A stretch of 64,000 bases of DNA, taken from Pseudomonadota bacterium (GTDB taxonomy: Bacteria; Pseudomonadota; Gammaproteobacteria; Steroidobacterales; Steroidobacteraceae). Both the position numbers and the translations under genes were made by a program. The notes beneath the pieces are model-generated. The model ran no database searches, was not told where the DNA came from, and saw nothing but the letters and a program-made list of their open reading frames with translations. This document shows, piece by piece, positions 30,098 to 51,489 of this stretch (its first letter is position 1; each line of letters starts with the position of its first letter). Location of the stretch: contig JANXWS010000056.1 in assembly GCA_025351005.1 (NCBI GenBank), positions 1 to 64,000 on the forward strand, given 5' to 3'.

Positions 30098-30147
30098 GCA
30101 GGGCGCGGCCGCACGGTACAGTAGCCGCGATCACCGAGGGGCGCCCC

Positions 30148-30474
30148 ATGCACGGACTGAGACCTGCCGGCTCGATCGCCGCGCTCGCGGCACTGACCGC
30201 CTGCAGCGCGCATGCTCCGCCCCGGCCGCCGCCACCACCGCCGACCGAGCTCGCCGCGACTGCGGCCAACATCGAAGCTCTGACGAAGCAGGGCTACAAG
30301 CTGGTCGACCAGGACGGCCGCAAGCTCTATTGCCGCACCGAGAACGTGCTCGGCTCGCACGTCGAGAAGCGCACGACCTGCATGACCGAGCAGCAGATCC
30401 GCGACATGGCCGCCGACACCCGCAATTCGCTCAACAACCTGCAGTTGCAGGTGCCGCCGCCGCAGGGCCACTAG
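30148..30474 (+). CDS. Small putative lipoprotein
   Basis: AALTAC lipobox-like; YKLVDQDGRKLYCRTENVLGSHVEKRTTCMTEQQI. Confidence 0.7.
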   Translation: MHGLRPAGSIAALAALTACSAHAPPRPPPPPPTELAATAANIEALTKQGYKLVDQDGRKLYCRTENVLGSHVEKRTTCMTEQQIRDMAADTRNSLNNLQLQVPPPQGH

Positions 30475-31516: not shown

Positions 31517-32638
31517 TCAGGGCCGGCGGGCCTCCACGAACAGCGAGTAGTAGCGATCCCCGTAGCGGGCACCGGCGACCGCGCTCACCGAGTCGACCCG
31601 CAGCGCCTCGTGGGCGCTCGCCATGAACCCGGAGCGGACCACGTCGACGAAACCTGCGTCGCCGAGCACGCGGCCGAGCGTCTCGAAGTCGTAGCCGTAC
31701 TTGTGCGCCTCGAACAGGTGCCCGGGCTCCGGGCCGGCACCCGCGTAGGCGAGGAAGTCCTCGAGGCGCGTCGCGTTCTCCGGCCACCAGCTCCAGGTCT
31801 CGCGCCGGCTGCCGAAGAAGCTGCGGTCGTTGCCGACGTAGGCGGCGACGCACTGCTCCATGTCGGGCACCACGACCCGGACGATGCCGCCGGGCGCGAG
31901 CACCCGATACAGGTCGCCCAGGAACGCACGCACGTCCATCGGGAAGAACAGGTGCTCGAGCAGGTGCGAGACGAACGCGTAGGCGACGCTGCCGTCAGCG
32001 AAGGGCAGCCCCCAGAGGACGTTCATCGCGAGCGGCGCCGGATGCACGTCAACGTTGATCCAGTCCGGCAGCAGGCCCCGGCCGCAGCCGATATGCAGGC
32101 GCAGGCCGCGCGACGCGCCGTCGACACCGAGCGTCGCGAGCTGCTCGGCGATGCTCGCATCGCGGAGCTTGGCGAGCTCCGCCCGCAGGGCGTCAACGCC
32201 CGCCAGGAGCGCGAGCAGTCGACGCTCGACGCCGATGCCCGAGCGTCGAGCGACCTCGCGCTCGGCCGAGGGTCCGAGTCCGCGCAGGTCGGCCGCGAGC
32301 TCGTAGGCGCTGCGCGCGAGCACCCGCAGGTGGCGGTGGGCCTGCCCGGTCGCGGCCTCGGTGGACGCGGCCGCCGTCGCCTCGCTTCCCGCCGCGACCA
32401 ACGAGCCGTTGTGCTCAAGCGCCTGCACGGCCTGGCTCGCGAGCGCACGATCCCCGGCACCGAGGGCTGCGAGCACGACCGCCGGGTCGGTCGGTCGCGT
32501 GAACTGGCATAGCCAGCCGGCCAGCATCGGATGAGCGACCTCGAGCGCCGGGAATGCGCTCGCCGTGGTGTGGACGATGATCGTGCCGTCGCGAAAGCGC
32601 ACCAGCGCGTCCGGGGAAAAAACAAGCTTGCCTGCCAT
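31517..32638 (-). CDS. Class I SAM-dependent methyltransferase with extra N-terminal domain
   Basis: RLHIGCGRGLLPDWINVDVHP, HLLEHLFFPMDVRAFLGDLYRVLAPGGIVRVVVPD. Confidence 0.88.
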   Translation of the reverse strand: MAGKLVFSPDALVRFRDGTIIVHTTASAFPALEVAHPMLAGWLCQFTRPTDPAVVLAALGAGDRALASQAVQALEHNGSLVAAGSEATAAASTEAATGQAHRHLRVLARSAYELAADLRGLGPSAEREVARRSGIGVERRLLALLAGVDALRAELAKLRDASIAEQLATLGVDGASRGLRLHIGCGRGLLPDWINVDVHPAPLAMNVLWGLPFADGSVAYAFVSHLLEHLFFPMDVRAFLGDLYRVLAPGGIVRVVVPDMEQCVAAYVGNDRSFFGSRRETWSWWPENATRLEDFLAYAGAGPEPGHLFEAHKYGYDFETLGRVLGDAGFVDVVRSGFMASAHEALRVDSVSAVAGARYGDRYYSLFVEARRP

Positions 32639-32726
32639 TTGCACCTGCTGGTGAGCCGCCGCACAGCACGGCTGCCCGGCACCCCGCCCGGGCCGGGCGA
32701 CTGCGGCCCGGCTGTACAATACCTCA

Positions 32727-33374
32727 GTGCTCGATCTCCCTGATCACGCAGCGCTCGACAAGGCGCGCCTGCTGGGCGGCTGCGTGCGCCTGCCACTCGC
32801 AGTCGACGCGGAGCGCCTCGCGGCCGAGCTGCGGGCGCTACCTTCGGCGCTGTGGGGCTCGCCCGGCGGCCGCGTCGGCGTGCACCGCGCGGCGGAGGCC
32901 GTGTTTCTGCGCGGCTTCGCCCCGGCCGAGGGCGACAAGCCGGTCGCCGATCGCGACGTGCTCGAGCGGCTACCGTATGCGCGCGCGATCATCGAGAACA
33001 TCATCCCGGCGTCGCCGCTCCGCTGCCTGCTCGCGCGCCTGCCGCCGGAAGGCGTGATCGGGGCCCACGTCGACACCGCCCCGTACTTCGCCAAGACCCT
33101 GCGACTGCACCTGCCGGTGGAGTCGAACCCGTCGGCCTTCATGCAGTGCGCGGGACTCTGGTACCGGATGGCGCCGGGGGAAGTGTGGGCGCTCAACAAC
33201 TCGACGCTGCACGGCGTCTGGAACGCCGACACCGAGCGGAGCCGCACGCACCTGATCTGCGACTTCCTGCCGAGCCCCGAGTTGCTGGCACTGATCGCCG
33301 CCGGCGAGCGCGACCTTGGCCGGCCGAGGCCCGACCTCGACCGCCGGGTCGGCGCGGCTTCCGGGCCGTACTGA
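32727..33374 (+). CDS. Aspartyl/asparaginyl beta-hydroxylase domain protein (HxD type)
   Basis: GVIGAHVDTAPYFAKTLRLHLPVESNPSAFMQCAGLWYRMAPGEVWALNNSTLHGVWN. Confidence 0.82.
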   Translation: MLDLPDHAALDKARLLGGCVRLPLAVDAERLAAELRALPSALWGSPGGRVGVHRAAEAVFLRGFAPAEGDKPVADRDVLERLPYARAIIENIIPASPLRCLLARLPPEGVIGAHVDTAPYFAKTLRLHLPVESNPSAFMQCAGLWYRMAPGEVWALNNSTLHGVWNADTERSRTHLICDFLPSPELLALIAAGERDLGRPRPDLDRRVGAASGPY

Positions 33375-33397: not shown

Positions 33398-34093
33398 ATG
33401 ATCGCGACCGAGCACTTCGTGTTCCTGCACCTGCACAAGTCGGGCGGCAGCTTCGTCAACGACTGCCTGGTCCGGTTCGTACCGGGCGCGCGCCACGTCG
33501 GCTATCACCTGCCGCGGCCGCTGATCCCGCGCAGCTACGCCGAGCTGCCGATACTCGGCTTCGTACGCAACCCGTGGAGTTACTACGTGTCGTGGTACCA
33601 CTTCCAGAAGGGCCACCCGCGGCCGAACGCACTGTTCCGCATCCTGAGCGACGACGGCCGGCTTGATTTCGAGCCGACCGTGCGCAACATGCTGTCGATC
33701 GGCAGCAACGACCTGCTGCTCGATCGCATCCTCGCGCAGCTGCCGGCCAGCTACTCGAACCGCGGGCTGAACCTCCCGGCGTTCGCGCTCGCGCCGATCC
33801 GCGGCACCGGCCTCGGCTTCTACGGCTATCTGTACCGCTACCTGTATGGCGAGATCGACGATCGGGTGCGCATCGGCCGGATGGAAAACCTGCGCGACGA
33901 GCTGCTCGCGATGATGGCCGCGACCGGCCTGCATGCGAGCGCGGCTCTGCGTACCCATGTGCACGAGGCCGATCCGAGCAACGTCTCCGAGCACATCCCC
34001 TACGCCGCCTGCTACGGACCGGAGCTGCGCGACCTCGTGCGCCATGGCGACGCCGAGATCGTCGAGCGGCACGGCTACACCTTCGGCGCGTGA
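33398..34093 (+). CDS. Sulfotransferase family protein (Sulfotransfer_2-like)
   Basis: VFLHLHKSGGSFVNDCL P-loop; ILGFVRNPWSYYVSWYHF PSB-like 3' motif. Confidence 0.8.
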   Translation: MIATEHFVFLHLHKSGGSFVNDCLVRFVPGARHVGYHLPRPLIPRSYAELPILGFVRNPWSYYVSWYHFQKGHPRPNALFRILSDDGRLDFEPTVRNMLSIGSNDLLLDRILAQLPASYSNRGLNLPAFALAPIRGTGLGFYGYLYRYLYGEIDDRVRIGRMENLRDELLAMMAATGLHASAALRTHVHEADPSNVSEHIPYAACYGPELRDLVRHGDAEIVERHGYTFGA

Positions 34094-35967
34094 GCCGCGG
34101 CCAGTTCCTCGAGGCGCCGCCACGTCAGCTGCACGCCCGGCAGCACGGCTGCGAGCGCATCGGCATGGCGCTCCCATTTGGCTGCGGCGGGCGGCGTCAG
34201 CGTGAAGCGCGACAGCGGCAGCGGCGCCTGCACGCGGGCCTCGAGCGCCGCGTCCATCGCGACACCGAGTGCCCCGCAGACCCCGCGGATGGCGTCGGCC
34301 GGTCGTGCCATCAGGTCCTCGTATCGAAGCGCGTGCCAGCGCTCCGGCGGCAGCTGGCTGAGATCATCGAGGATTGCGCGGTTTGCCGCTTCCCACTGGA
34401 ACGCCGCGATCTCCTCGATGGGGCGCCCATTGAGGGCACGCCATCCGGGCGGCAGCAGCAGCGACCAGGGCCCGGCAAAGCCGGGCAGGCCGTTGTAGGT
34501 CTTCCAGCGCCCGGATTTCCAGGCCTCGATGATGCTCGCGATGTTGGCGCGCGGCTCGCGCCACAGGAACACGAACTGGGCGTCCGGAAATAGCCGGTCA
34601 AAGAACGGGATCCTGAGGGCATTCTTGGGCGTCTTCTCGAGGAACCGGCGCGCCGCTGTCGGCGCTACTCGCCGTCCCGCCGCGTCGCACAGCTGCTCGA
34701 GGATCGCCGCGGTGACGTAGTCACGCACGGCGTCGGTCGCGTGCCGCGCGCCCAAGCGATTGGAATCGACCGTCGGCGCACCGGGTCGCAGCGACTCGAG
34801 GCCCTCGACCAGCATGTGACCCTCGCCGCCGACGGTGCAGGTCTGATCGCCCGCGGCCAGCGTCTCGAACAGCAGCGTGCTGCCGGAGCGCGGCGCCGCG
34901 ACGATGAAGACCGGTCGTTGCAGCGCCTGCGGCCGGACGACGCTGGCGGCGGGCGGCAGCCTTGCCGCCGACGGGTTCGCGCCAGGACCTGATACCGTCG
35001 TCAGCGGTGCGGCCGGCAGCGTGCCGTGCGGACGCGGCTCCGAAAGAATCGCCCGGAGCACGCGGCCTTCGAAGATCACGTGGGCCGCGACGCGGTTGGT
35101 GCGCATCACAAGGCCGTCGGCCGCCGCCTGCAGCTCGTCGCGCTTCTGATCGACGAAGCGCCGCAGTGCCGCGCGGCCGGCCGCGTCCTCCCCGTGGATC
35201 AGGTAAGCCTGGCGCCAGTCGCGGCAGAAGCCGTCGAGCATGCCGTGGTAGCGCGCGAGGCGGCTCGGGTCGACGCGCGCGTCGGCCGCTACGAGCTCGG
35301 CCCGCAGGTCGAGGACCAGCAGGTCGACCTCGGGTGGCGGCATGACCGGCCGCGGGACCGTGCGCTCGGTCGTCGGCCAGTCGTCGCGGCCGGCCTGATA
35401 GGTGTGGCGCGCATCGGGGGCCTGCTGTTCGCTGAGCCCGACCAGCTGCCAGAAGCGCGAGCCGCCGGTCGTGTCGGCGACCAGGTGGATGCGTTCCGAG
35501 CTGCCGGGGTTCTCGACATGGTGCAGGCGCCAGTTGTCGAACACCCACGCCTCGCCCGCCGCCATGTGCACGCTGGTGCCGTCGCAGTGGAAGCGCACCG
35601 TCGGCGAGGTCACGACCGGTATGTGCAGCCGGACGCGGTAGAACCAGTGGTGGTTGATATCCGCGTGCTCCGGCACACATGCGCCCGGAGCGAGCCGGAG
35701 CAGCCGCGATCGGCTCCACGCCACGCCGAAGCTTGCGAGCACCTGGCGGACGTAGGGCAGGGCGGCCAGGTGCGCCGTCGGCGCCATCGGCCCGTTGACG
35801 GCGTCGTTCTCGCCGCCGTCGACGGTGATCAGGCGCGCCGCGCTGTTGCCTGCGATCTCGTTCGGGTGGCGCACCCAGGCAGTCTGTGGCAGCGCCGCCA
35901 CCTCGACCCGCAGGCGCTCCGCGTCGAATCGGAGTGGCAGCCGGAAGAATGGCCGTGGCAGGCGCAT
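34075..35967 (-). CDS. Two-domain fusion: N-terminal Asp/Asn beta-hydroxylase, C-terminal sulfotransferase
   Basis: N-terminal VPEHADINHHWFYRVRLHIPV...AGEAWVFDNWRLHHVEN; C-terminal FIVAAPRSGSTLLFETL...FLEKTPKNALRIPFFDRLFPDAQFVFLWREPRANIASIIEAW. Confidence 0.85.
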   Translation of the reverse strand: MRLPRPFFRLPLRFDAERLRVEVAALPQTAWVRHPNEIAGNSAARLITVDGGENDAVNGPMAPTAHLAALPYVRQVLASFGVAWSRSRLLRLAPGACVPEHADINHHWFYRVRLHIPVVTSPTVRFHCDGTSVHMAAGEAWVFDNWRLHHVENPGSSERIHLVADTTGGSRFWQLVGLSEQQAPDARHTYQAGRDDWPTTERTVPRPVMPPPEVDLLVLDLRAELVAADARVDPSRLARYHGMLDGFCRDWRQAYLIHGEDAAGRAALRRFVDQKRDELQAAADGLVMRTNRVAAHVIFEGRVLRAILSEPRPHGTLPAAPLTTVSGPGANPSAARLPPAASVVRPQALQRPVFIVAAPRSGSTLLFETLAAGDQTCTVGGEGHMLVEGLESLRPGAPTVDSNRLGARHATDAVRDYVTAAILEQLCDAAGRRVAPTAARRFLEKTPKNALRIPFFDRLFPDAQFVFLWREPRANIASIIEAWKSGRWKTYNGLPGFAGPWSLLLPPGWRALNGRPIEEIAAFQWEAANRAILDDLSQLPPERWHALRYEDLMARPADAIRGVCGALGVAMDAALEARVQAPLPLSRFTLTPPAAAKWERHADALAAVLPGVQLTWRRLEELAAAHAPKV

Positions 35968-35970
35968 GCG

Positions 35971-37242
35971 TCAGGCCGCGGCGACAGCCTGGTTGAAGTC
36001 GCCGATCGCCGGGATGAGCTCGGTGAGCGCGAGTCGCTCCACCTCGGTCAGGTGCGGGTTCCAGACGTCCATGATCAGGACGACGCGCGTCTCGGCGCTG
36101 CGGTTCCAGGCCTCATGCTCATAGGTGTCGTCGAAGACGACGATCGACCCTTCCCGCCAGGCATGCAGCTCGCCACCGACGCGCAGCGCGCAGTCGCGCG
36201 GCACGATCAGCGGCAGGTGCGCCACCAGGCGCGTGTTGGTCACGCCGCGGTGCGGCAGCAGGTGGGTGCCCGGCGTGAACACCGAGAACAGCGCCTCCGG
36301 ACCGTGTCCGCGCACGCGACAGAGCGGCGCAAGATCGAGCGCCGCGGCCGTCTCCGGGCAGCGGCCGCACTCCTCGGCACGGCGCACGCCATGGCGGTGG
36401 AAATAGAATCCCGTCCAGCTGGGCGGACGCTCGGCGCCGCGCAGGTTCGCGCGCTCGAGTTCGGCCGAGTCGAACACCGGTTCGCGGACGACATCGGCCG
36501 CGAGCAGTGCTGCGAGCTCGCCCCGGATCAGCGGCGTGAGTGCCTCGACCGCGTCCATCCACGCGAACAGCCGCCGCTCGAGGTACGGGGACGCCGGCAG
36601 CTCCGGGAAGTAAAGGAACGTCGGCCGCTGCCGACCATCGGGGTACTCGGCCGCTTCGTATCTGAGCAGGATCCGCAGGCAGCGCTCGACCCTGCGCATG
36701 GCGGCAGCACCGTAGCGCGCCGCGAGCGGCTCGATCAGGTTCGCGAGCGCCTCGGTACGCTCCTTGCGGACCGCGAGCACCGCGCGCTCGACTGCCGGCC
36801 GCAGCCCGACGGGCGTCGTCGCAGCGTCGAGCCACTGGCCCCGCACCTGCGCATCCTGCAACGCGCGCGCATAGTGGAGAATCGCCGCGGCGTCGCCGCC
36901 GCGCTCGAGAGCACGAGCAAGGTCGAGCCGTGCGGCGTACAGGTCGGGCTTCATCGCCAGTGCCGTGCGAAACGCCGCGATCGCGGCCACCGCGTCACCG
37001 CCGGCCTCGCAGGCGCGGCCGAGCTGGTGGCGGGCGGAGACGTTGCCCGGATCGATCGCGGTCGCGCGCTCGAGGCGCGCCCGCGCCTCGGCGGCGCGGC
37101 CCTCACGCAGCGCCGCGAGCCCGACGATGGCGAGCGCTTCCGCATCGTCGGGCGTCGCCTCGAGGACGCGGCCGTAGGCACGCTCCGCCTCCGCGACGCG
37201 ACCTTGCCGCAGGAACTCGCGTGCTTCGCTGATCGTGGTCAT
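35971..37242 (-). CDS. TPR + aspartyl/asparaginyl beta-hydroxylase (HxG, ASPH-like)
   Basis: TPR N-terminus (AERAYGRVLEATPDDAEALAIVGLAALREGR); FTPGTHLLPHRGVTNTRLVAHLPLIVP...VVFDDTYEHEAWN. Confidence 0.88.
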   Translation of the reverse strand: MTTISEAREFLRQGRVAEAERAYGRVLEATPDDAEALAIVGLAALREGRAAEARARLERATAIDPGNVSARHQLGRACEAGGDAVAAIAAFRTALAMKPDLYAARLDLARALERGGDAAAILHYARALQDAQVRGQWLDAATTPVGLRPAVERAVLAVRKERTEALANLIEPLAARYGAAAMRRVERCLRILLRYEAAEYPDGRQRPTFLYFPELPASPYLERRLFAWMDAVEALTPLIRGELAALLAADVVREPVFDSAELERANLRGAERPPSWTGFYFHRHGVRRAEECGRCPETAAALDLAPLCRVRGHGPEALFSVFTPGTHLLPHRGVTNTRLVAHLPLIVPRDCALRVGGELHAWREGSIVVFDDTYEHEAWNRSAETRVVLIMDVWNPHLTEVERLALTELIPAIGDFNQAVAAA

Positions 37243-37319: not shown

Positions 37320-37886
37320 ATGCCCGTCGGAACGCTGCAGCATTACATCCGCACCTACGACGACGATCTCGAGGCCGCCCTCTGCGAGCGGATGGTCGCG
37401 TCCTTCGACGCGCTCGAACGCTTCCAGCAGCCGAACGGCCGCGGCCACCGCGCGGGCCTCGAGCACTCGGCATGGACCGAGCTCAACGTCACCCGCCTCG
37501 CGGATCCCGGCTTCCTCGGCAGCTTTCGCCTGGGAATCGACCGCGCCCTCGAGCGCTACAACCGCGACCTCGGCCTGACGATCGCCGTGCCGAATTCGGC
37601 GACGATCGCGGACCTGGTCATGAAGCGTTACCGGCCGGGGACCGGCGAGCAGTTTGAACTGCATTTCGACTCGATCTACCAGAAGGCGGACCGCTATCTC
37701 GTCATGCTCTGGTACCTGAACGACGTCGCGTCCGGCGGCGAGACGACGTTCCCGCAACTCGGGGTCGCCGTGCAGCCGAAGCGCGGAAGGCTGCTGATGT
37801 TCCCGCCGTTCTGGATGTACCAGCACGAGGGCCGCGCGCCCGTCGGCGGCGACAAATACATTGTCTCGACCTATCTGACGTACTGA
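37320..37886 (+). CDS. Prolyl 4-hydroxylase-like 2OG-Fe(II) oxygenase
   Basis: MKRYRPGTGEQFELHFDSIYQKADRYLVMLWYLNDVASGGETTFPQLGVAVQPKRGRLLMFPPFWMYQHEG (HxD...H). Confidence 0.88.
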   Translation: MPVGTLQHYIRTYDDDLEAALCERMVASFDALERFQQPNGRGHRAGLEHSAWTELNVTRLADPGFLGSFRLGIDRALERYNRDLGLTIAVPNSATIADLVMKRYRPGTGEQFELHFDSIYQKADRYLVMLWYLNDVASGGETTFPQLGVAVQPKRGRLLMFPPFWMYQHEGRAPVGGDKYIVSTYLTY

Positions 37887-37901: not shown

Positions 37902-39770
37902 TCAGGCGTCGTAGCCCCAGCGTTCGAGGTAGGGCCGGACCGCCGCCGCGACCGGGGCCAGTTCGCTCTGGTACCGCCGCCAGCGGCCGATCGAAGCGGA
38001 ATTCACCGGGCGCACGACCTGAGCGTAGCTCGGTGTGCTGATGTACTTCTTCTGGATCGCACGGGTGGCAGGCGCCAGTACCGCGTCGTCCCATGGCAGC
38101 TCGAGGAACCCGAGCAGCGAGCGCATCTCGCCCTCGAAATCCTCCACCAGCGTCTCGTAACGGAGCTCGCGAACGGCCGGCTGCAGCAAGCCGACCTCGC
38201 GGTACCACGCATCGAAGGCCCGCAGGTAGCCGGCGGCCAGTGTGTCGAGGTCGCTGCAGAGCAGCGCGAACTCCGGCGCGCGGAAGTGCTGCATGAAGCA
38301 GCTGGCCAGCACGTCGCACGGGTGGCGGATGGCCATCACGATGCGCGCGTTCGGAAAGAGCCGGCGGATCACCGGCAGCCGCAGCATGTTGAGCGGGTTC
38401 TTGTCGACCAGCCGCTGGCCCGTGGCGATCTCTGCGTGGCCGGCCGCACGCCGCCAGTAGGCGGCCCGCAGCGCCGCAAGCTGGCCGGCATCGAGCCCCG
38501 CGAGTCGCTCCGGGTAGGCGACGCCGAGCGCCAGCATGTCGTCGAGCGACTTCTGCACGAGAGCCTGCTCGTCGATCGACACGAGCGCCGGGTGCGCGTC
38601 GAGCGCCACTTCGAGCAGCGTTGTGCCGGAGCGCGGGAAGGCTACGATGAAGACCGGGCTCGCGGCAGCCGGCGGGGCGGGCGGCTCGTCGCACCATCGG
38701 GCGACGTCGGCCGGGTCGCTGGCGTACTGTGCGATATCCAGTCGCGGCATGCCGCGCAGAATGGTCGACGGGGCCGTTTGCTGCAGATGGGCGACCTGCG
38801 ACCGGTGCGCCTCGAGCAGCACGGCAAACGCATCCGGATAGCGACCGAGCGCGTCCAAAGACGCAGCGAGCGGGAACAGCTCGAAATGTCGGTTGGCGAA
38901 ATCGCCGCGGTCCTGGGCGAGGGCGTGCGTGAGCAGCTGCGCCGCGGTCTCATGCCTGCCTTCGCGTTGCGCGAGGCGCGCCTCGGTCAGCAGCAGGTCA
39001 CGGTGCAGCGCGCCGGCACGTGGATCCGCAGCGACGCGGTCGATGAGCGCACGCGCTTCCGCAAGCCGGTTGGTCCGCTCGTAGATCTGCACCAGCGTCA
39101 GCGCGGCCCGCGGATTGAAGGATGCGCCGCCGGCCGAGCGCTCGGCCCACCGCTCGGCGTCGGCCGTCTGGCCGAGCGAGAGCAGCTGGTGGCCGACGTC
39201 GGCGACAAACTCGGGCGCCGCGTCGGGCGGTGCGTCCCAGCCGCGCAGCGCCTCGATGGCTTCCTCGGTCTGGAGCGACTCGAAGCAGGCCTTCGCATAC
39301 TGGAAGCGGAGCTCGGCATCCTCCGGTGCCAGTTCGAGGCCGCACTTGAGCACCGCGCGCGCCGCCTCGTAGTCGCGGCGCTCGAGGTGCAGCAGCCCGA
39401 CGTTGAAGTAGAAGTCAGCGCTGGTGCCGCCGAGCTGCGCCGCCCGGCTGTAGGCGATCAGTGCCGGCTCGTATTGCTGCCGGCAGCGGCGCACGGTGCC
39501 GAGGTGCATCCAGAAGTCTGCGTCATCCGGCACGCGGTCGGTCAGCTCCGTATACACCTCCTCCGCCTCGCCGTAGCGTTCCGTGCCGTGCAGCACGTGG
39601 CCGAGGACGGCCAGGGCGGCGACGTGGCCGGGTGCCCCCGCGAGCGCCTGCCGGCACAAGGCCTCGGCCTCGAGCAGCCGACCGCCACGGGCGAGGTCGG
39701 TCGCGCTCGTCGCGAGGGCATCCGGGTCCAGGTTCGTTGTCGCCACGTCACGGCCCTTTGGAGCGAGCAT
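37902..39770 (-). CDS. TPR-containing sulfotransferase
   Basis: TPR repeats; PVFIVAFPRSGTTLLEVALDAHP; LVDKNPLNMLRLPVIRRLFPNARIVMAIRHPCDVLASCFMQHF. Confidence 0.9.
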   Translation of the reverse strand: MLAPKGRDVATTNLDPDALATSATDLARGGRLLEAEALCRQALAGAPGHVAALAVLGHVLHGTERYGEAEEVYTELTDRVPDDADFWMHLGTVRRCRQQYEPALIAYSRAAQLGGTSADFYFNVGLLHLERRDYEAARAVLKCGLELAPEDAELRFQYAKACFESLQTEEAIEALRGWDAPPDAAPEFVADVGHQLLSLGQTADAERWAERSAGGASFNPRAALTLVQIYERTNRLAEARALIDRVAADPRAGALHRDLLLTEARLAQREGRHETAAQLLTHALAQDRGDFANRHFELFPLAASLDALGRYPDAFAVLLEAHRSQVAHLQQTAPSTILRGMPRLDIAQYASDPADVARWCDEPPAPPAAASPVFIVAFPRSGTTLLEVALDAHPALVSIDEQALVQKSLDDMLALGVAYPERLAGLDAGQLAALRAAYWRRAAGHAEIATGQRLVDKNPLNMLRLPVIRRLFPNARIVMAIRHPCDVLASCFMQHFRAPEFALLCSDLDTLAAGYLRAFDAWYREVGLLQPAVRELRYETLVEDFEGEMRSLLGFLELPWDDAVLAPATRAIQKKYISTPSYAQVVRPVNSASIGRWRRYQSELAPVAAAVRPYLERWGYDA

Positions 39771-39797
39771 CACCGATCCACGTTCTGCCGGCAAATG

Positions 39798-39849: not shown

Positions 39850-42696
39850 TCAGAACTTCTGGTTGAACGACACGAAGAAGCGGCGGCCGAGCGTGTCGTA
39901 GGTGCTCACGTCGGTGTTCGCGTTCAACACGTTGTTCTGATAGAAGAGCGGCGGCTGCTTGTCGGTCAGGTTCTGTATTCCGACCTGCACCTTCGTCTTG
40001 GTCGGCAGCAGGTACCCCAGCGTCAGGTCGAGGTAGGTGACCGACTCGCGCGGCAGCGTGACGTTCGGTATCGCTCCGTCAGCGTTCAGGATGTCCAGCT
40101 TGCCGATGTAGCGGGCCATCAGCTGCGCATCAGCTCCGAAGCCGTTCCAGCCGACTCCACCGAGCGCGCGCCACTTGGCGAAGTTGCCGAACTGGCGGTT
40201 GAAGGTACCGGCGAACTCGTTAGTGTTACCGCCGACCGTGTTCTGGTAGCTGCCGATGTGGGTCGCATCCAGCGAGAATCGCCAGCCGCCGATCGACGTG
40301 TTCGGCACCACATACTTGACGCCGAAGTCGATGCCATGGGTCTTCAGTTCGCCGAGGTTCACCGTCGGCAGCGCGAACACCGCAACCTGGCCCGCGTCCG
40401 GACCACCGGCGATGCGGGTGATCAGGCCGCAGTAGGCGGCGGACCCGGTCGCGATGCACTGCTGGCTCGCGTAGTTCGGGTCGAGCTGCGTGATCACGTT
40501 GTCGATCTTGTAATACCAGGCGTCGATGTTCATCGACAGGCCGCGGACCGCGCTCGAGTCGTAGACGATGCCGTACGTGACGACGTCGCCGGACTCAGGT
40601 TTCAGGTTGATGTTGCTGAGAATGGTCGAGGTGATCTGCGAGGTGCCCAGGAACTTGTACGAGCCGTCGGTCGGCACGTTGACGCACGCGTTGGCAAGGC
40701 CCGGGGTCGCCGCGAGCTTCGCGGGGGTCAGGTTCAGGCACGGGTCCGCGTAGGTCGGGTTCGACTGTGTCGGCGCGGCGTACAGGTCCGAAATCGTCGG
40801 CACGCGGTACACCTGCGCGTAGGTGCCGCGCACCAGCACGTCGGCGATCGGCCGGTACTCGATCTTCAACTGCGACTTCGTCGTGCTGCCGAACAGCGAA
40901 TAGTCCGAGTAGCGGACGCCGGCCGTCAGGTTGAGGGCGTAGATCCCGGGTACGTTCTTGACGACCGGAACCAGGAACTCGGCGTACAGGTCCCGCTGGT
41001 CGTAGGCGCCCGACGACGGCCCGGTGCAGGCCTCGTTCGAGATCAGGCACTTCGTGAACAGCGGCGGTTGCGCAGTGGCGAGGTGGTCGTTCGAGAACAG
41101 GCCTTCTTGCTTGCTGTACTCGAAGCCGACCGCCGCCGCGAGCGGGCCTGCCGGCAGCTGGAACAGGTTGCCGTCGAGCGACGCGCTGACCGTCTTGTTG
41201 CGGTACGTGCGGTCGGTGCTGTAGTCGGTCGAGTTCAGCCCGAAATTCGTGGCGTTGGCCGGATCGGTCAGGTTGAACATGTCGACCGGCGTGCAGCCGG
41301 CGATCGGGTTGGCCGGCGTGCCGCAGGTCGGGACGGTTCCGTTCAGGAAAGACGGACCGACGGCGGCCTGCAGGCCCGGCTTGTAGAAGTAGCCGGCGAC
41401 GTTCTGGTTCTGGTCGAGGCGGCCGTAGCCCACGTTCACGTCCCAGCGCCAGTCGGTCGAGAACAGGTTGCCCTTGAGGCCGACGTTGGCGAGCTTGCTG
41501 TCGCTGACGGCGGTGCTCTTGCGGTCGCCGAGCGACAGCAGGCGCACGCGCAGGTTCGGGTTCGGCGTGTTGAAGCCGCCGAAGTTGTAGCCGAACGGGT
41601 TGTAGATGCTCTGCGCCGAGACGATGACGTCATCCGCGGTCGCATCGAACGGCAACGGCGCGTACTCGAAGCCGGACGACGTCCGGTTGAACAGGATCTG
41701 GCCGTAGGCCTCGACGCTGTCGTTGAGCTTGTAGTTCAGCGTCGTGAAGACCGCGGCGCGCTCCTGCGGCGTGATGATCAGGTTGTACGGCTGGTAGTTG
41801 AACGCGTCGGAGCCGTGGAAGCAGCGGTAATCCGCAAGCGTCTTGCCGTCGTGGCCCGCAATGCGGGTGACGGAGGTGCAGCCGAAGCCGCCCGGAGTCG
41901 GGCCGTTCAGCGGCGCCTTCAGTCCGACGCGACCGGTCGGGATGCGGCTCGAGCCGCCGCGCGTCACGACACCGCTGTACAGGTAGAGCGCATACTTGGA
42001 GTAGTCGCGCCTCGACGCGTAGACCGCGTCCTGTTGCGAGTAGCTGCCGCCGAACAGTACGTTCAGCCTGTCGTTGCCGCCGCCCCACAGGGCGCTCAGC
42101 GAGTGGTGCTGGCCGTCGCTCTTGGCGGTGCGGCCGTAGTCGGCGTTGAACTCGAGGCCGTCGACATTCTTGCGGGTGATGAAGTTCACGACGCCGGCGA
42201 TCGCGTCGGAGCCGTACACCGCGCCCGCGCCTTCCTTCAGGACCTCGACCCGCTCGATGATCGCGATCGGGATCTGGTTGACGTCGACCGCGCCGCTCGA
42301 CCCCACGAGGCCGACACGCCGGCCGTTCAGCAGCACCAGGGTGCGCTTCGAATTGAGGCCGCGCAGCTCGACGTTCGACTCGCCGAAACCGCCACCGTTG
42401 TTGACCTGGCCGTTCTGCGCGGAGCCCGAGATGGCCGGGACCTGCTGGATGAGGTCACCGATCGTCTGCACGCCGGAGGCTGCAATCGCCGACTGGTCGA
42501 GCACGAACACCGGGCTCGCCGTCTCCGCCTCGACGCGGCGAATGCGGGAACCGGTGACGGTGATTTCCTGCAACGTCTCGGCGGGCTGCGCGGCCGGCTG
42601 CGCCTGCGCCGCGGCCTGCTCGGCCGGCGTCAGCGACGTTACGGCACCGGCGACGAGCGCCAGGCGCACGGCCGCGGTCAACTGTTCGTTTTTCAT
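39850..42696 (-). CDS. TonB-dependent receptor
   Basis: Signal peptide; LQEITVTGSRI; plug GVQTIGDLIQQVPAISG; EGAGAVYGSDAIAGVVNFITRKN; C-terminal barrel ending RRFFVSFNQKF. Confidence 0.95.
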   Translation of the reverse strand: MKNEQLTAAVRLALVAGAVTSLTPAEQAAAQAQPAAQPAETLQEITVTGSRIRRVEAETASPVFVLDQSAIAASGVQTIGDLIQQVPAISGSAQNGQVNNGGGFGESNVELRGLNSKRTLVLLNGRRVGLVGSSGAVDVNQIPIAIIERVEVLKEGAGAVYGSDAIAGVVNFITRKNVDGLEFNADYGRTAKSDGQHHSLSALWGGGNDRLNVLFGGSYSQQDAVYASRRDYSKYALYLYSGVVTRGGSSRIPTGRVGLKAPLNGPTPGGFGCTSVTRIAGHDGKTLADYRCFHGSDAFNYQPYNLIITPQERAAVFTTLNYKLNDSVEAYGQILFNRTSSGFEYAPLPFDATADDVIVSAQSIYNPFGYNFGGFNTPNPNLRVRLLSLGDRKSTAVSDSKLANVGLKGNLFSTDWRWDVNVGYGRLDQNQNVAGYFYKPGLQAAVGPSFLNGTVPTCGTPANPIAGCTPVDMFNLTDPANATNFGLNSTDYSTDRTYRNKTVSASLDGNLFQLPAGPLAAAVGFEYSKQEGLFSNDHLATAQPPLFTKCLISNEACTGPSSGAYDQRDLYAEFLVPVVKNVPGIYALNLTAGVRYSDYSLFGSTTKSQLKIEYRPIADVLVRGTYAQVYRVPTISDLYAAPTQSNPTYADPCLNLTPAKLAATPGLANACVNVPTDGSYKFLGTSQITSTILSNINLKPESGDVVTYGIVYDSSAVRGLSMNIDAWYYKIDNVITQLDPNYASQQCIATGSAAYCGLITRIAGGPDAGQVAVFALPTVNLGELKTHGIDFGVKYVVPNTSIGGWRFSLDATHIGSYQNTVGGNTNEFAGTFNRQFGNFAKWRALGGVGWNGFGADAQLMARYIGKLDILNADGAIPNVTLPRESVTYLDLTLGYLLPTKTKVQVGIQNLTDKQPPLFYQNNVLNANTDVSTYDTLGRRFFVSFNQKF

Positions 42697-43453
42697 CTAA
42701 GACTCCCCACTAGCGGTTGCATCCCCAATTCTGTTTGAAGCGGCGACCGCGCCAACGGTTTAGAAACCCTTGACACAAGTTGACCGGCGCGTGGCGCCTC
42801 TGCCGTGCACCACTAACGACCGAATCAACCGCTGGAACCGCTCCCGGTTCGTCAAATCTTACATACTTGCAAGTGATTCGCAATTCCAAAGTGTTGTATT
42901 AATGGTACACAACAGGTCGCCCCGACTTGGAAATGCGGTTGAACACGGCTCCACAGGCCCGCATTCGGCTGTGGATCGATCATGCCTTCTTAGATTACAC
43001 GTTTAAAAACAATAAGATATATAAGATACGGCCCTGACCGCAGGCTTCCCCTGCGTGTGATGGCGGACCTGGCGCGCGCTGGACCTCGTGCCCCGGACTG
43101 TTCCCTGGAGGCCACAAATAACCGTGGGTTCGCACCGGCCCGCGAGCGGCACCCGCGCCAGCGGGCGGGAGGGCCTTCGCGCGTGGCGCGAGCCGGTCGG
43201 ATCGGGCGGCCGTCCCGCCCGTGCGGGCAGGCGCCGTCGATGCCCTGTGTTCGCTCTGCTGGCGGGCGAGCGCTTCATTGTCCACGCCAGCGACCGGCGG
43301 ATGCGGCCGGGCGACGCAGTCGCACGGTCGGCGGGATTTTCGCGATGAATGGGAACATGGCGCCGCCGCCCGCGTCGCGAGCCTGTGTCGCGCGCGCCCA
43401 CCGAGAACCATCGATGCCGCACCGCGGCCGGCACCGGCGTGCGAGCATGCGTG

Positions 43454-44923
43454 ATGAACCCAGACACCACGCCCGAAGCCACCGTCCAGCAGGCCGTACT
43501 GCTCGAGGAGTTCGGTCGCGTCGACGAGGCCGCGGGTCTCTACGCGCGCCTGCTTGCAAGCAGGCCCGACCTCGCGGACTGCTGGTACAACCTGGGCGTC
43601 CTGCAAAAGAAATTACGCCGTTTCGACGAGGCACTGGCCTGCTACCAGCAGGCGCTCGACCGGGGCATCGGCGAACCCGAGCAGGTGCACCTGAATCGCG
43701 GCGTCATCTACGCGGATCACCTGCGACGCAACGACGATGCGCGCCGTGAGTTGCGCGCAGCGCTCGCATGGAATCCGGTCTACGTGCCGGCGCTCCTCAA
43801 TCTCGCCAATCTCGATGAGGATCTGGGCCGGCGGAGCCAGGCGGTGGCGCTTTACGAGCGGATCCTCGCCCTTTCGCCCGACTCGCTCGATGCGCTCGCA
43901 CGCCTCGCGAACGCCAAGGGGGTCTCCGGGGCCGACGACCCGCTGATCGGCCGGCTGCAGGAGGCGCTCGCGCGGGCCGGCGCCGACCCGGCCGCGAAGG
44001 CGACCGTCGGCTTCGCGCTCGGTCGCGCGCTCGACGCCGGCGGCCGCTACGACGAGGCCTATGCGGCGTACGTCGCAGCCAACGACTGCAGCCGCGCGTG
44101 CGCGGCTCCTGGGACTACCCTCTACGACCGCCGCCAGCACGAGCAGTTCGTCGATGAGCTGATCGGGGCATTCACCCGCGAGCTGCCGCAGATCTCCGCG
44201 GTCGCATCGCAGGTCCGGCCGATCTTCATCTGCGGCATGTTCCGCTCCGGCTCGACGCTGACCGAGCAGCTTCTGGCCGGCCATTCCCGTGTGACCCCTG
44301 GCGGCGAGATCGACTTCATTCCGAATTCCGTCGCGACCGACCTCGCGCCCTTCCCCGCCGCGATGGGGCGTTTCAGCGCCGGTCGGCTGCAGCTGCTCGC
44401 GGCTCGCTATCTCGAAACCGTCGAGCGGATGTTTCCGCGCGCCGAATTCGTCACGGACAAGAGGCCGGACAACTTCCTCTACGTCGGCCTGATCAAGCGG
44501 CTGTTCCCGGCGGCGAAGATCATCCATACGACCCGCGACCCGCTCGACAACTGTTTATCGCTTTACTTCCTGCATCTGGACCACCGCATGGGTTACGCGC
44601 TCGACCTGCTGGACGCTGCGCACTTCCACCACCAGCACCAGCGCCTGATGGCGCACTGGAAGTCCCTGTACGGCGACGACATCGTCTCCTTCGACTACGA
44701 CGAGTTCGTGCGCGCGCCGCGACCGACCCTTGAGCGCCTGCTGGCCGGCTGCGGGCTCGCGTGGGAGGAGGAATGCCTGTCGTTCGAGCGGCGGGACAAC
44801 GCGGTCAAGACCGAGAGCGTCTGGCAGGTCCGCGAGCCGCTCTACCAGCGCGCGTCCGGTCGCGCGCGGAACTACGAGAAACACCTCGCGTCGGTGCGGG
44901 CCACCCTCGCTGATCCGTCTTGA
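43454..44923 (+). CDS. TPR-containing sulfotransferase
   Basis: TPR repeats; RPIFICGMFRSGSTLTEQLLAGHS; FVTDKRPDNFLYVGLIKRLFPAAKIIHTTRDPLDNCLSLYFLHL. Confidence 0.9.
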   Translation: MNPDTTPEATVQQAVLLEEFGRVDEAAGLYARLLASRPDLADCWYNLGVLQKKLRRFDEALACYQQALDRGIGEPEQVHLNRGVIYADHLRRNDDARRELRAALAWNPVYVPALLNLANLDEDLGRRSQAVALYERILALSPDSLDALARLANAKGVSGADDPLIGRLQEALARAGADPAAKATVGFALGRALDAGGRYDEAYAAYVAANDCSRACAAPGTTLYDRRQHEQFVDELIGAFTRELPQISAVASQVRPIFICGMFRSGSTLTEQLLAGHSRVTPGGEIDFIPNSVATDLAPFPAAMGRFSAGRLQLLAARYLETVERMFPRAEFVTDKRPDNFLYVGLIKRLFPAAKIIHTTRDPLDNCLSLYFLHLDHRMGYALDLLDAAHFHHQHQRLMAHWKSLYGDDIVSFDYDEFVRAPRPTLERLLAGCGLAWEEECLSFERRDNAVKTESVWQVREPLYQRASGRARNYEKHLASVRATLADPS

Positions 44924-45131
44924 GACGGTCGTTTGTCGGGGCGTGCTCGCTCCTTCGCGGCGGTGTGCATCGCAGCATCGACCGCCGCCCCGGACCCCAG
45001 AAGCGCCGGACTGAGCTCCCAACCGTCGCTCCGCATCGACGTCGTCCTGTTGGCGCATCGTGCCTCAAGCCGCATCAACCACTTACGTGAAACAGCGCGG
45101 GTCGATCCGCGGGCTGTCGCCGCGTCGCCCT

Positions 45132-45153
45132 ACGTGTCGGGCGCCCGACACGT
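45132..45153. repeat. Perfect 22-bp palindrome
   Basis: ACGTGTCGGGCGCCCGACACGT. Confidence 0.85.
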
Positions 45154-45433
45154 GTTGCTCCAGAACAACTATCGGGGCCGGAGCTCGGCTTGCGTTGCGA
45201 AAGTGCCGCAAATCCTTTGGGAAAGGCTCCGCTATAGGCCTACGTGTAACCCACAGCGCATTTTCGGCTGTTGCCGATTGACAACGGGTGCTTGTGCGGG
45301 ATCGGGTAATTCAATACCATCCGGGCACAAAGTCTCGAAAAGACAACGCGGCGTGCACCTCCAGGGGGGCACCAGCCGGTCACTAAACGGCCTAGGTAAG
45401 AACGGCTCAGCCGTTCGCAGGAGGAACTGGTCA

Positions 45434-48385
45434 ATGTACAGAAACACCCAAGTTGCGAGCGCGGTGCGTTACGCCCTCGTGGTGAGCGCCGTCTCGGCTG
45501 GCGGCGTGGCCACGCCCGCGCTTGCGCAGCAGGCACCCGCCGCCGCCGCCCCGGTCGAGCTTGAGTCGGTGGTCGTCACCGGCTCGCGCATCAAACAATC
45601 GAACCTGGAGTTTACGAGCCCGGTCACGCAGGTGACGGACGCCGACATTGCCATCCAGGGCGCGACCCGCGTCGAGGACCTCCTCAACCAGCTGCCGCAG
45701 GCCTTTGCCGCGCAGAACGCGACGGTGTCGAACGGCGCCAGCGGCGCGGCGACGATCGACCTGCGCGGCCTCGGGGACGCCCGGACGCTGGTCCTGATCG
45801 ACGGCCGGCGCATGCCGTATGGCAGTACGACCAACTCGGCGGCCGACGTCAACATGATCCCGGCGGCGCTGGTCGAGCGCGTCGACATACTGACGGGCGG
45901 CGCGTCCGCCGTGTACGGATCGGACGCCATCGCCGGCGTCGTCAACTTCATCACGAAGAAGAACTTCGAGGGCGTCCAGGTCGACGTCGAGTACAACTTC
46001 TTCAACCACAACAACGCCTTCAACGGGCCGGGTCAGAAGCAGCTGCGCGACGTCATCGCCGCCCGCCAGGCGACCAACCCGGCGCAGTTCCAGCTGCCGT
46101 CGAGCTCCGTGAATACCGGCACCGGCAAGATCGGCTCGCTGCTGGTCGGTCTGAACAGTGGCGACGGCAAGGGCAACGTGGTCCTGTACGCCGGCGTCGA
46201 GACGAACGACGCGGTGCTGCAAGCGAAGTACGACTACTCCGCCTGCACGCTCAACAATAACGCACCGAAAACCTCGTTCTCGTGCGGTGGCTCGAGCACC
46301 TCATACCCCGGCCGCTTCACGGACTTTGCAACGTACAACTCGACGGTCAGCACCGCTGGAACAGGCAACACGTTCCGCAACTTCAACGCCAACCTCGATC
46401 AGTACAACTTCGGACCGTTGAACTACTACCTGCGCCCGGACCAACGCTACAACCTGGCGGCCCAGGGGCACTACGAGGCCAACGAGCATGCCGACGTCTA
46501 TGCGCAGCTGATGTACTCGGACTATCGCTCGGTCGCGCAGATCGCGCCCGGCGGCATCTTCTTCAGCGGCCAGAACGTCAACTGCGGCAACCCGCTGCTC
46601 TCGGCCAATGAGTCCTCGACGATAGGCTGCACGCCCGCCATGATCGCGGCCAATACGATGCAGGGCGTCTACATCGCCCGCCGCAACGTGGAGGGAGGCG
46701 GACGCCAGAGCGTGTTCAGCAACTCGATGTTCCGCGGCGTCCTCGGCATCAGGGGCAAGATCGCGGAAGGTTGGGACTACGACGCGTTCCTGCAGCGCTC
46801 GTCCACGTCCGCGGATCCGACGACGAACAATTATTTCGACAAGACCCGCATCGCGAACTCGCTCAACGTCGTGTCAGTCGGCGGCGTGCCGACCTGCCAG
46901 TCGGTCGTCAACGGCACGGATCCGAACTGCGTGCCCTACAACCTCTGGCAGATCGGCGGTGTCACCCCGGCGGCGCTCAAGTACCTGCAGGTGCCGGGCG
47001 TCCAGACGGGTGTGATCGACCAGGAGATCTACAACGCCACGATCAACGGTGACCTTGGCGTGTACGGTGCCAAGCTCCCGACGGCGAACGAAAGCCTGAA
47101 GCTGGTGTTCGGTGTCGAGTACCGCCGCGACAAGGTCCAGAACGTGACCGACCTGGAGCTTTCGTCCTACCAGCTGTCCGGTACCGGCGGCCCCACGATC
47201 GGCATCGCCGGCGTTACCCAGGTCAAGGACTACTTCGGCGAAATGCTGCTGCCGCTCGTTCAAGGCAAGACGGGTGCCGAACAGCTCGGCGTCGACGGCG
47301 CCTACCGCCACTCGGACTACGGCAACCTCAAGACCGACACGTACAAGTTCGGCGCCGACTGGGCGCCGCTCGCCGACGTCAAGTTCCGCGGCAGCTTCCA
47401 GCGCGCCGTCCGGGCGCCGAACATCATCGAGCTGTTCACGGCGCAGGGGTTCAACCTCTTCAACGCCGTGGGCGATCCATGCGGTGCCGCCAAGACCGCG
47501 AGCCTCGCCCAGTGCGTCGCGACCGGCGTCCCGGCCGCGAACTACGGCAACGGAGCGATCCTCGACAGCCCGGCCGGACAGTACAACTTCAACCAAGGCG
47601 GCAACCCGAACCTGCAGGCCGAGACCTCGGACACGACGTCCTTCGGTGTCGTGTTCACGCCGACCTTCGCGCACGGCTTCAACGCGTCGTTTGACTACTT
47701 CAAGATCAAGGTCCAGAACACGATCTCGATCTTCGGCTCGGTGAACACGCTGAACGCCTGCTACACGAACAACAACGCGGCAGCCTGCGGGCGCATCCAT
47801 CGCAACGCGCAGGGTGCATTGTGGTTCGGGACCGGGTTCATCGACGATACCAACGTCAACACCGGGGCGCTCAGGACCTCCGGCCTTGACGTGAACATCA
47901 ACTACCAGGGGCTGCACGTGGGGTCGATGGGCACGCTGAACTTCAACATGACGGGCACGAAGCTCACCGAGCTGGTCACCGACAACGTGCCGGGGATCAT
48001 TCCCGCGTACGACTGCGCGGGTCAGTACGGCACGAGCTGCGGAGGCCCGAGCGCGAAGTGGCGGCACCATGCGCGAATCGGCTGGGTCACGCCCTGGAAG
48101 CTGGACTTCGACCTGACCTGGCGCTACTTCGGCTCGGTCAGCGCCTTCCAGGGCAACTCGGCGGCAATCGACTTCAACCTGCCCTCGAGGAGCTACTTCG
48201 ACCTCTCCGGCAGCTACACGCTGAGTCCGAAGACCTCGATCGTGGTCGGCATCAACAACCTGCTCGACAAGGACCCGCCGATCACCTCCGTCCCGGCAGC
48301 CGCGGTGGGCAACGGCAACACGTACCCGGGTACGTACGATTCGTTCGGCCGTTTCATCTTTGCGAGAATCAAGGTCGGCTTCTGA
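45434..48385 (+). CDS. TonB-dependent receptor
   Basis: SD GAGGAACTGG; signal peptide; ELESVVVTGSRIKQ; TGGASAVYGSDAIAGVVNFITKKNFEGVQVDVEYN; C-terminal RFIFARIKVGF. Confidence 0.95.
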   Translation: MYRNTQVASAVRYALVVSAVSAGGVATPALAQQAPAAAAPVELESVVVTGSRIKQSNLEFTSPVTQVTDADIAIQGATRVEDLLNQLPQAFAAQNATVSNGASGAATIDLRGLGDARTLVLIDGRRMPYGSTTNSAADVNMIPAALVERVDILTGGASAVYGSDAIAGVVNFITKKNFEGVQVDVEYNFFNHNNAFNGPGQKQLRDVIAARQATNPAQFQLPSSSVNTGTGKIGSLLVGLNSGDGKGNVVLYAGVETNDAVLQAKYDYSACTLNNNAPKTSFSCGGSSTSYPGRFTDFATYNSTVSTAGTGNTFRNFNANLDQYNFGPLNYYLRPDQRYNLAAQGHYEANEHADVYAQLMYSDYRSVAQIAPGGIFFSGQNVNCGNPLLSANESSTIGCTPAMIAANTMQGVYIARRNVEGGGRQSVFSNSMFRGVLGIRGKIAEGWDYDAFLQRSSTSADPTTNNYFDKTRIANSLNVVSVGGVPTCQSVVNGTDPNCVPYNLWQIGGVTPAALKYLQVPGVQTGVIDQEIYNATINGDLGVYGAKLPTANESLKLVFGVEYRRDKVQNVTDLELSSYQLSGTGGPTIGIAGVTQVKDYFGEMLLPLVQGKTGAEQLGVDGAYRHSDYGNLKTDTYKFGADWAPLADVKFRGSFQRAVRAPNIIELFTAQGFNLFNAVGDPCGAAKTASLAQCVATGVPAANYGNGAILDSPAGQYNFNQGGNPNLQAETSDTTSFGVVFTPTFAHGFNASFDYFKIKVQNTISIFGSVNTLNACYTNNNAAACGRIHRNAQGALWFGTGFIDDTNVNTGALRTSGLDVNINYQGLHVGSMGTLNFNMTGTKLTELVTDNVPGIIPAYDCAGQYGTSCGGPSAKWRHHARIGWVTPWKLDFDLTWRYFGSVSAFQGNSAAIDFNLPSRSYFDLSGSYTLSPKTSIVVGINNLLDKDPPITSVPAAAVGNGNTYPGTYDSFGRFIFARIKVGF

Positions 48386-48410
48386 CCGAGGCCTGAAGTC
48401 AGCGACAATG

Positions 48411-48444
48411 GCGGCGGTCCCAACGGGGACCGCCGCTTTTTTTT
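48411..48444 (+). terminator. Rho-independent terminator
   Basis: GCGGCGGTCCC-AACG-GGGACCGCCGC followed by TTTTTTTT. Confidence 0.9.
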
Positions 48445-48467
48445 GCCTGCCCGCCGCGGGAGCAGCG

Positions 48468-49535
48468 ATGCCGTCGGCCGATTCGCTCGTCGAGCAGCTG
48501 CTGCGCCGGGTGCCGGAGTCTCCGGACATCCATCTGCAGCAGCTCGACCTGGTCCGGCGGGCGGCCCTGCTCGTCGCCCTCGGCGCCGACGGCTATCGGC
48601 AGGCGAGCTTCCTGGACGACCGGATCCTGCGGCCGGAAACGCAGGGCGCCTGGGTCCCCGTGGACGCGCTCGCGGCCTCCGCCGGCCGGATCCCGGAGGG
48701 GCTGCCGGTCCATTTCATCGCGCACAGCGGGCACGTGGGCTCGACGCTCGTCAGCCGTCTGCTCGACGCGACGGACTCGGTGCTGTCGCTACGCGAGCCG
48801 CTGGCGCTCAGGACGCTGGCCGACGCACACGACGTGCTCGGCCGACCGGATGCGCTCTGGGCCGATCGCGAGTTCGAAGGGTGGGTCGCGCTGTGCCTGC
48901 GCCTGTGGGGCCGCGGCTACCCGGGGAGCCGCTGCGTCGTCGTCAAGGCAACGAGCAGCGCCGGGCGGGTTCTCGGCACGGTGCTGGCGGCCGGCCCGGG
49001 CTCGCGCGCCATAGCCATGAACCTGCATGCCGAGCCGTACCTCGCGACGCTGCTGGCCGGCGAGAACTCCCCGCTCGACCTGCGCGGGCACGCCCCCGAA
49101 CGGATGCGGCGCCTGCAGGAGCGCCTGGCGGCGCCGGTGACGCCGCTCCATCGGCTCACCGTCGGTGAGCTCGCGGCTTTGAGCTGGGTCACCGAGTCGC
49201 TCACTCAGCGCGAGTTGCTCGAGCGCCACCCGGGGCGCGTGCTCGCCGTCGACTTCGACGATTTTCTTGCGGCGGTCGCGCCGGCCATGGCGCGGATCCT
49301 GGCGCACCTCGGGTTGCCGGCCGACCCGACCTACCTGGCAGGCGTCGAGCGCAGCCCGGTGTTGATGGGGTATTCGAAGGCGCCCGAACACGCCTACACG
49401 CCGGCGCTCCGCGCCGAGGTGCTGGCCGACTCGCGCCAACGCAACGCGACCGAGATCCGCCGCGGCCTCGCCTGGCTCGAGACGCTCGCGCGATCGGACG
49501 CCCGGGTTGCAACGGTGGTCGGCGCCGGCGTCTAG
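48468..49535 (+). CDS. Sulfotransferase-like P-loop protein
   Basis: PVHFIAHSGHVGSTLVSRLLDATDSVLSLREP; VLAVDFDDFLAAVAPAMARILAHLGLP. Confidence 0.65.
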   Translation: MPSADSLVEQLLRRVPESPDIHLQQLDLVRRAALLVALGADGYRQASFLDDRILRPETQGAWVPVDALAASAGRIPEGLPVHFIAHSGHVGSTLVSRLLDATDSVLSLREPLALRTLADAHDVLGRPDALWADREFEGWVALCLRLWGRGYPGSRCVVVKATSSAGRVLGTVLAAGPGSRAIAMNLHAEPYLATLLAGENSPLDLRGHAPERMRRLQERLAAPVTPLHRLTVGELAALSWVTESLTQRELLERHPGRVLAVDFDDFLAAVAPAMARILAHLGLPADPTYLAGVERSPVLMGYSKAPEHAYTPALRAEVLADSRQRNATEIRRGLAWLETLARSDARVATVVGAGV

Positions 49536-50197: not shown

Positions 50198-50252
50198 GTT
50201 GGCGGAACCCCTCGGTGACGGATGCCGTCGCAGGGCCGGCGACTTCCCGGCC

Positions 50253-51434: not shown

Positions 51435-51489
51435 GTGAGGGCCACCCGCCGGCCCGCTGCGCCTTCTTTGCAGGATAGAATAATCCATT

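Follow-up and report, generated by a model that had tools for sequence, protein, structure and literature searches.

The window analysed here, a stretch of 64,000 nucleotides from a Steroidobacteraceae genome, carries an open reading frame that joins a hydroxylase-type and a sulfotransferase-type sequence, and this raises the question of whether one polypeptide may both create a hydroxyl group and sulfate it, and on which substrate. To our knowledge, the hydroxylation and subsequent O-sulfation of bacterial proteins or peptides is essentially undescribed outside natural-product pathways. No description of an oxygenase-sulfotransferase fusion was found in the open-access literature, subscription journals lying mostly outside that search. 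Each domain comes from a known superfamily; the novelty is their combination, and the function is putative. As the two activities are tied in a single polypeptide, the chemistry is testable with one purified protein. The gene and its parts are as follows.

34075-35967, minus strand: fusion gene, 630 aa, 2OG/Fe(II) oxygenase, linker and PAPS sulfotransferase (open reading frame, Pfam, homologue conservation, AlphaFold, Foldseek)
35032-35967, minus strand: oxygenase module, residues 1-312, with Fe ligands H101, D103 and H149 and putative 2OG arginine R159 (homologues, AlphaFold, 4p7w alignment)
34942-35031, minus strand: disordered linker, residues 313-342 (AlphaFold pLDDT below 50)
34078-34941, minus strand: sulfotransferase module, residues 343-630 (Pfam, homologues, AlphaFold, Foldseek, PDB alignment)

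The frame of 630 codons is free of internal stops and lies exactly where the preliminary description had placed it, on the minus strand, which that description left unstated. Full-length fused homologues with 34-60% identity to the fusion protein occur in many independent genomes, and since they share the start methionine and the catalytic residues, a chance reading frame is ruled out. Residues H101, D103, H149 and R159 of the first half and E382, R470 and S478 of the second are kept in at least 90% of the homologues, fused and split forms pooled.

The AlphaFold model, computed from an input of 33 homologous sequences, has a mean pLDDT of 89.8 and shows two confident domains separated by the disordered linker; its pTM of 0.57 indicates that the relative placement of the two domains is not fixed by the model. 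When the model was compared with the PDB using Foldseek, the CurM sulfotransferase 4gbm ranked first (E 2.4e-11), followed by the L-proline cis-4-hydroxylase 4p7w (1.2e-10) and, at lower ranks, by a nucleoside-antibiotic beta-hydroxylase, tyrosylprotein sulfotransferases and AspH. Pfam, the intact motif sets and the structural comparison thus agree with the earlier proposal of a hydroxylase-type N-terminal half and a PAPS-type sulfotransferase C-terminal half in one polypeptide, each half having its own fold.

The oxygenase half matches Asp_Arg_Hydrox (PF05118) at residues 64-166 (E 8.5e-15, 55.4 bits against a cutoff of 22.6) and adopts a double-stranded beta-helix fold, as seen by AlphaFold and by Foldseek matches to 4p7w, 7v4f and AspH. 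Its HxD...H...R motif, formed by H101, D103, H149 and R159, aligns to that of the L-proline hydroxylase 4p7w. The helical part at residues 170-312 is assigned to the same module because it is conserved in stand-alone hydroxylases of about 320 aa; an extra enzymatic domain between the halves is thereby ruled out, this part folding within the oxygenase module.

The preliminary description had named this half an Asp/Asn beta-hydroxylase, a label that could not be established: it is the name of the Pfam family and no demonstrated specificity of the fusion. AspH-type enzymes carry an HxG...H site, and AspH proper combines this two-histidine site with a TPR domain, whereas the fusion has HAD and lacks the TPR domain. 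The same contrast is seen in the translations within the window, where the fusion and the 32727 hydroxylase (HVD) have HxD and three TPR-AspH neighbours have HxG. Human AspH shares the family PF05118 with the fusion, which differs from it by HxD in place of HxG, by the missing TPR domain and by the added sulfotransferase; the TPR-plus-oxygenase plan and HxG motif of AspH are found instead in the neighbours 35971, 50253 and 51490. The best structural match of the half is L-proline cis-4-hydroxylase (4P7W/4P7X; PF05118), similar in fold and in the HxD...H...R motif, with 16% identity in the structural alignment; unlike the fusion, that enzyme acts on a free amino acid and lacks a sulfotransferase domain. 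The closest solved relatives also include L-proline 3-hydroxylase and the nucleoside-antibiotic beta-hydroxylase, and a weak NCBIfam similarity to LpxO was recorded.

The C-terminal half matches Sulfotransfer_3 (PF13469) at residues 352-572 (E 2e-25, 90.7 bits against a cutoff of 27), and its fold matches in Foldseek are 4gbm, TPST1/2, STF9 and SULT. The P-loop AAPRSGST lies at residues 357-364, of which PRSGST (359-364) aligns with CurM and TPST, and the 3'-phosphate motif R470...S478 is conserved among the homologues at both residues. The conserved E382, in GGEGH, stands at the position of the TPST catalytic glutamate or one residue off, the gap placement being ambiguous. Similarity to the tyrosylprotein sulfotransferases TPST1/2 thus extends over the fold, the P-loop and 3'-phosphate motifs and the acidic residue, together with a sequence match (E about 2e-4), while TPST1/2, unlike this half, are tyrosine-specific Golgi enzymes. 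There is also a weak NCBIfam similarity to NoeE.

The best match in both sequence and fold is to the CurM/olefin-synthase sulfotransferase domains (4GBM, 4GOX), which are likewise built into a larger enzyme and, in the CurM type, work on a beta-hydroxyl, but are joined to polyketide synthase modules and not to an oxygenase. The CurM sulfotransferase sulfates a beta-hydroxyl acyl-ACP and so drives decarboxylative elimination. By analogy, sulfation by the fusion might turn the new beta-hydroxyl into a leaving group, the end product being a dehydrated or decarboxylated residue without a stable sulfate ester. Such an outcome is highly improbable, as CurM requires a dedicated thioesterase and an ACP, neither of which has an apparent counterpart among the cluster genes, and the CurM-type fold is widespread among Sulfotransfer_3 proteins.

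The fusion is present in at least 24 distinct genomes (L001-L012, L017, the window's genome, G097, G182, G085, G004, G220, G241, G091, G265, G276 and G550), which excludes a recent one-off fusion or an assembly artefact. The G-numbered genomes come from order- and phylum-wide searches; G211, G099 and G077 apparently duplicate L005, L006 and L008. Absence of the fusion from eight same-genus genomes indicates a patchy distribution. Split forms occur in both gene orders, hydroxylase before sulfotransferase in L022, where the reading frames overlap by 20 bp, and sulfotransferase before hydroxylase in L023-L025, G072, G173, G178 and G200. Trees of each half require the state to switch between fused and unfused three times or more.

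Other arrangements were also recorded. In the Caulobacterales loci L020 (9032-11632) and L021 (8882-11596), the fusion-type sulfotransferase is fused behind a TPR-sulfotransferase, giving a different fusion, a double sulfotransferase of 867 and 905 aa, with a short hydroxylase gene adjoining divergently on the opposite strand. A stand-alone 320-aa hydroxylase of the N-terminal-half type lies directly behind a TPR-sulfotransferase in Caulobacterales (Caulobacter) and in Novosphingobium (L015, L016, L018, L019). In two distant genomes (L010, 9217-9990; L017, 9218-9955), the gene immediately upstream of the fusion encodes a protein of about 250 aa with the motif FGF.ERSTLYGGR.F, for which the Pfam search gave no family above cutoff.

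The association of the two halves was quantified by a census of all PF05118 and PF13469 genes of 20 genomes, a neighbour being a gene within 1.5 kb. The pairing was obligate for the fusion-type sulfotransferases, all 19 of which have a PF05118 hydroxylase (13 fused, 6 as neighbours), as compared to 11 of the remaining 112 Sulfotransfer_3 genes (Fisher p 1.5e-15), in a sample that was picked for carrying one half, is not phylogenetically independent or corrected for relatedness, and consists predominantly of fused cases, so that the six unfused cases are its informative part. From the opposite side, a Sulfotransfer_3 gene stands no more than 1.5 kb from 35 of 42 short HxD-type hydroxylases, which score lower against PF05118, and from 7 of 24 long AspH types. 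The fusion and its recurrent two-gene versions indicate which oxygenase feeds which sulfotransferase.

The pairing, read from gene neighbourhoods, indirectly supports a coupling of hydroxylation and sulfation, and its recurrence in many relatives suggests that the two reactions are probably sequential on one target. A different arrangement would be that both domains modify the same protein or peptide at different residues, sulfate being placed on a pre-existing Tyr, Ser or Thr and the hydroxyl elsewhere, with the fusion merely co-localising the modifications. The resemblance of the C-terminal half to tyrosylprotein sulfotransferases would fit this, as would the flexibility of a linker of about 30 residues and the several other hydroxylases and sulfotransferases of the cluster; yet the near-obligate, specific pairing is stricter than interchangeable partners would give, and we regard separate sites as somewhat unlikely.

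The reading preferred here is that of a bifunctional enzyme, hydroxylation being followed by sulfation of the new hydroxyl, on a polypeptide or peptide linked to a receptor, and about an even chance (roughly 0.5) is given to it. The fusion would act in the cytoplasm, where the N-terminal Fe(II)/2-oxoglutarate oxygenase would hydroxylate an aliphatic C-H of the substrate; the C-terminal PAPS sulfotransferase, joined to it by a flexible tether, would then put sulfate on the new hydroxyl. The genes around the fusion bear on the substrate and are given below.

31517-32719, minus strand: SAM methyltransferase with an N-terminal domain of about 100 aa (Pfam; in the cluster of L003, L009, L011 and L061)
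32727-33374, plus strand: stand-alone PF05118 hydroxylase of the HxD type, 215 aa, partner of 33398 (Pfam, cluster comparison)
33398-34093, plus strand: sulfotransferase-fold protein of a separate group, 231 aa, with conserved HLHKSGG and RNPW..YYVSWY (Pfam, model, PDB matches)
35971-37242, minus strand: TPR and AspH-type hydroxylase, HRG motif, no Asp ligand (Pfam, translation); 37242 is the likely start of a frame open to 37473
37320-37886, plus strand: PKHD-type 2OG-Fe(II) oxygenase (PF13640), HFD...H motif, divergent gene within the cluster (Pfam, cluster comparison)
37902-39794, minus strand: TPR-sulfotransferase (PF13469) (Pfam, cluster comparison)
39850-42696, minus strand: TonB-dependent receptor, co-inherited with the cluster-type fusion (Pfam, cluster comparison, orthologue search)

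The block running from the receptor 39850 through the TPR-sulfotransferase 37902, the PKHD-type oxygenase 37320 on the opposite strand and the TPR-AspH gene 35971 to the fusion 34075 is conserved, and its order is kept in Steroidobacteraceae-like genomes, shorter flanks having been compared for further genomes. Steroidobacter agaridevorans and Peristeroidobacter soli, both cultured, are among the carriers of the cluster. Beyond the fusion it continues on the opposite strand with the sulfotransferase 33398 and the hydroxylase 32727, and in several members with the methyltransferase 31517.

The preliminary description had taken 32727 and 33398 for a split version of the fusion pair. A second hydroxylase/sulfotransferase pair is indeed present and conserved across relatives, in which the two gene types abut or overlap, but it is a parallel pair and not simply a split copy, since 33398 falls into another group of sulfotransferases. 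The 33398 protein is barely detected by Pfam (Sulfotransfer_1, E 0.013), while the best PDB matches of its model (pLDDT 92) are all sulfotransferases (best E 1.4e-3, probability 1.00); its gene and the fusion gene overlap by 19 bp at their 3' ends. The 32727 hydroxylase has 32% identity to the N-terminal half of the fusion.

Strict co-inheritance of the fusion with the receptor was evident from the orthologue search: an orthologue of receptor 39850 (48-56% identity) accompanies the cluster-type fusion in all nine searched genomes that have it, while the 34 others, some of the same genus among them, lack the receptor orthologue. The receptor as a universal partner was rejected, as the fusions or split pairs of L070, L071, L073, L082, L083 and L085 are not beside a receptor. 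Within this lineage, the cluster may serve a single TonB-dependent receptor, the fusion being one of its several hydroxylase/sulfotransferase units, and the most likely target would be a polypeptide or peptide connected with this receptor, whether the receptor before its export or a ligand that it imports. The link to one receptor family gives a concrete place to seek the substrate. The more specific proposal, that the cluster adds a side-chain hydroxyl and then an O-sulfate at the same carbon to the receptor before export or to a peptide imported by it, which would be a protein modification of a new kind, is speculative and rather unlikely as it stands; if true, the fusion would be a self-contained writer of hydroxyl-sulfate, and pairs of oxygenase and sulfotransferase would be the signature of a general modification system linked to receptors in Proteobacteria.

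The substrate might instead be a small molecule in free form, for example an amino acid or an acyl or lipid intermediate, converted to a sulfated metabolite in the manner of L-proline hydroxylases, LpxO/OlsC and NoeE. The small-molecule hydroxylases among the closest solved oxygenases, the weak LpxO and NoeE similarities and the occurrence of some fusions outside receptor clusters are consistent with this. Since no NRPS/PKS scaffold genes were recognised around the fusion, the TPR-bearing partner enzymes suggest protein recognition, and the co-inherited receptor would go unexplained unless it imports the product, a small-molecule substrate is considered unlikely.

Next to the first, the window carries a second receptor module (43349-52659), which comprises a TPR-sulfotransferase, a TonB-dependent receptor, a sulfotransferase and two TPR-AspH genes.

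43349-44923, plus strand: second TPR-sulfotransferase, accessory module in the window's genome, likely start near 43454 (Pfam)
44933-48385, plus strand: second TonB-dependent receptor, true start downstream of the start of the reading frame (translation, cluster comparison)
48360-49535, plus strand: stand-alone sulfotransferase-like protein (sub-threshold Sulfotransfer_3, E 4.9e-5)
50253-51692, minus strand: TPR and AspH-type hydroxylase, HTG motif (translation, genome-wide PF05118 listing)
51490-52659, plus strand: TPR and AspH-type hydroxylase, HNG motif (translation, genome-wide PF05118 listing)

The window holds five of the six PF05118 genes and three of the six Sulfotransfer_3 genes of its genome. 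The three other Sulfotransfer_3 genes fall into two loci, each with a TonB-receptor-like gene by BLAST; at these loci (C42, 60731-63572; C21, 6061-6639; L065, L066) TPR-sulfotransferase genes adjoin TonB-dependent receptor genes, a context that suggests a general association of receptors and sulfotransferases. The receptor link may explain the TPR-sulfotransferases and hydroxylases that flank receptor genes in the window's genome and its relatives. A further, densely packed gene set, at L026 (8299-14211), contains a Sel1-oxygenase, a stand-alone hydroxylase of the N-terminal-half type, a sulfotransferase-like protein, a PKHD oxygenase, a protein related to 48360 and a 2OG-FeII_Oxy_5 protein, with a receptor nearby.

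Supply of PAPS was considered through APS kinase, for which a strong match was obtained in eight of nine related cluster or fusion genomes and in neither the window's genome (assembly 86% complete) nor G243 (97% complete); the missing match could reflect assembly incompleteness or another source of PAPS.

When all small reading frames that lie outside the assigned genes were compared between 12 related loci and the window, no conserved precursor peptide emerged, the candidates being only unrelated conserved genes. The N-terminus of the cluster methyltransferase gave no PqqD match by profile, although a divergent RRE may be present; by eye, this region of about 100 aa (32350-32640, minus strand) resembles a small winged-helix or PqqD-like domain, without profile support. 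Neither of the two marks of a RiPP cluster, a conserved small precursor gene and an RRE/PqqD-like domain, was thus found. Methanobactin operons are similar to the fusion cluster in encoding a sulfotransferase (MbnS) together with a TonB-dependent transporter, and differ from it by having the precursor peptide MbnA as well as MbnB/C; the account of these operons (PMC3621798) mentions no fusion of an oxygenase with a sulfotransferase.

Small Pro/Ala-rich proteins, secreted or lipoprotein-like, are conserved near the cluster in three Steroidobacter-type loci (L001, 5071-5502; L002, 11790-12239; L012, 11823-12260), and the product of 30109-30471 on the plus strand of the window was judged by eye to resemble them.
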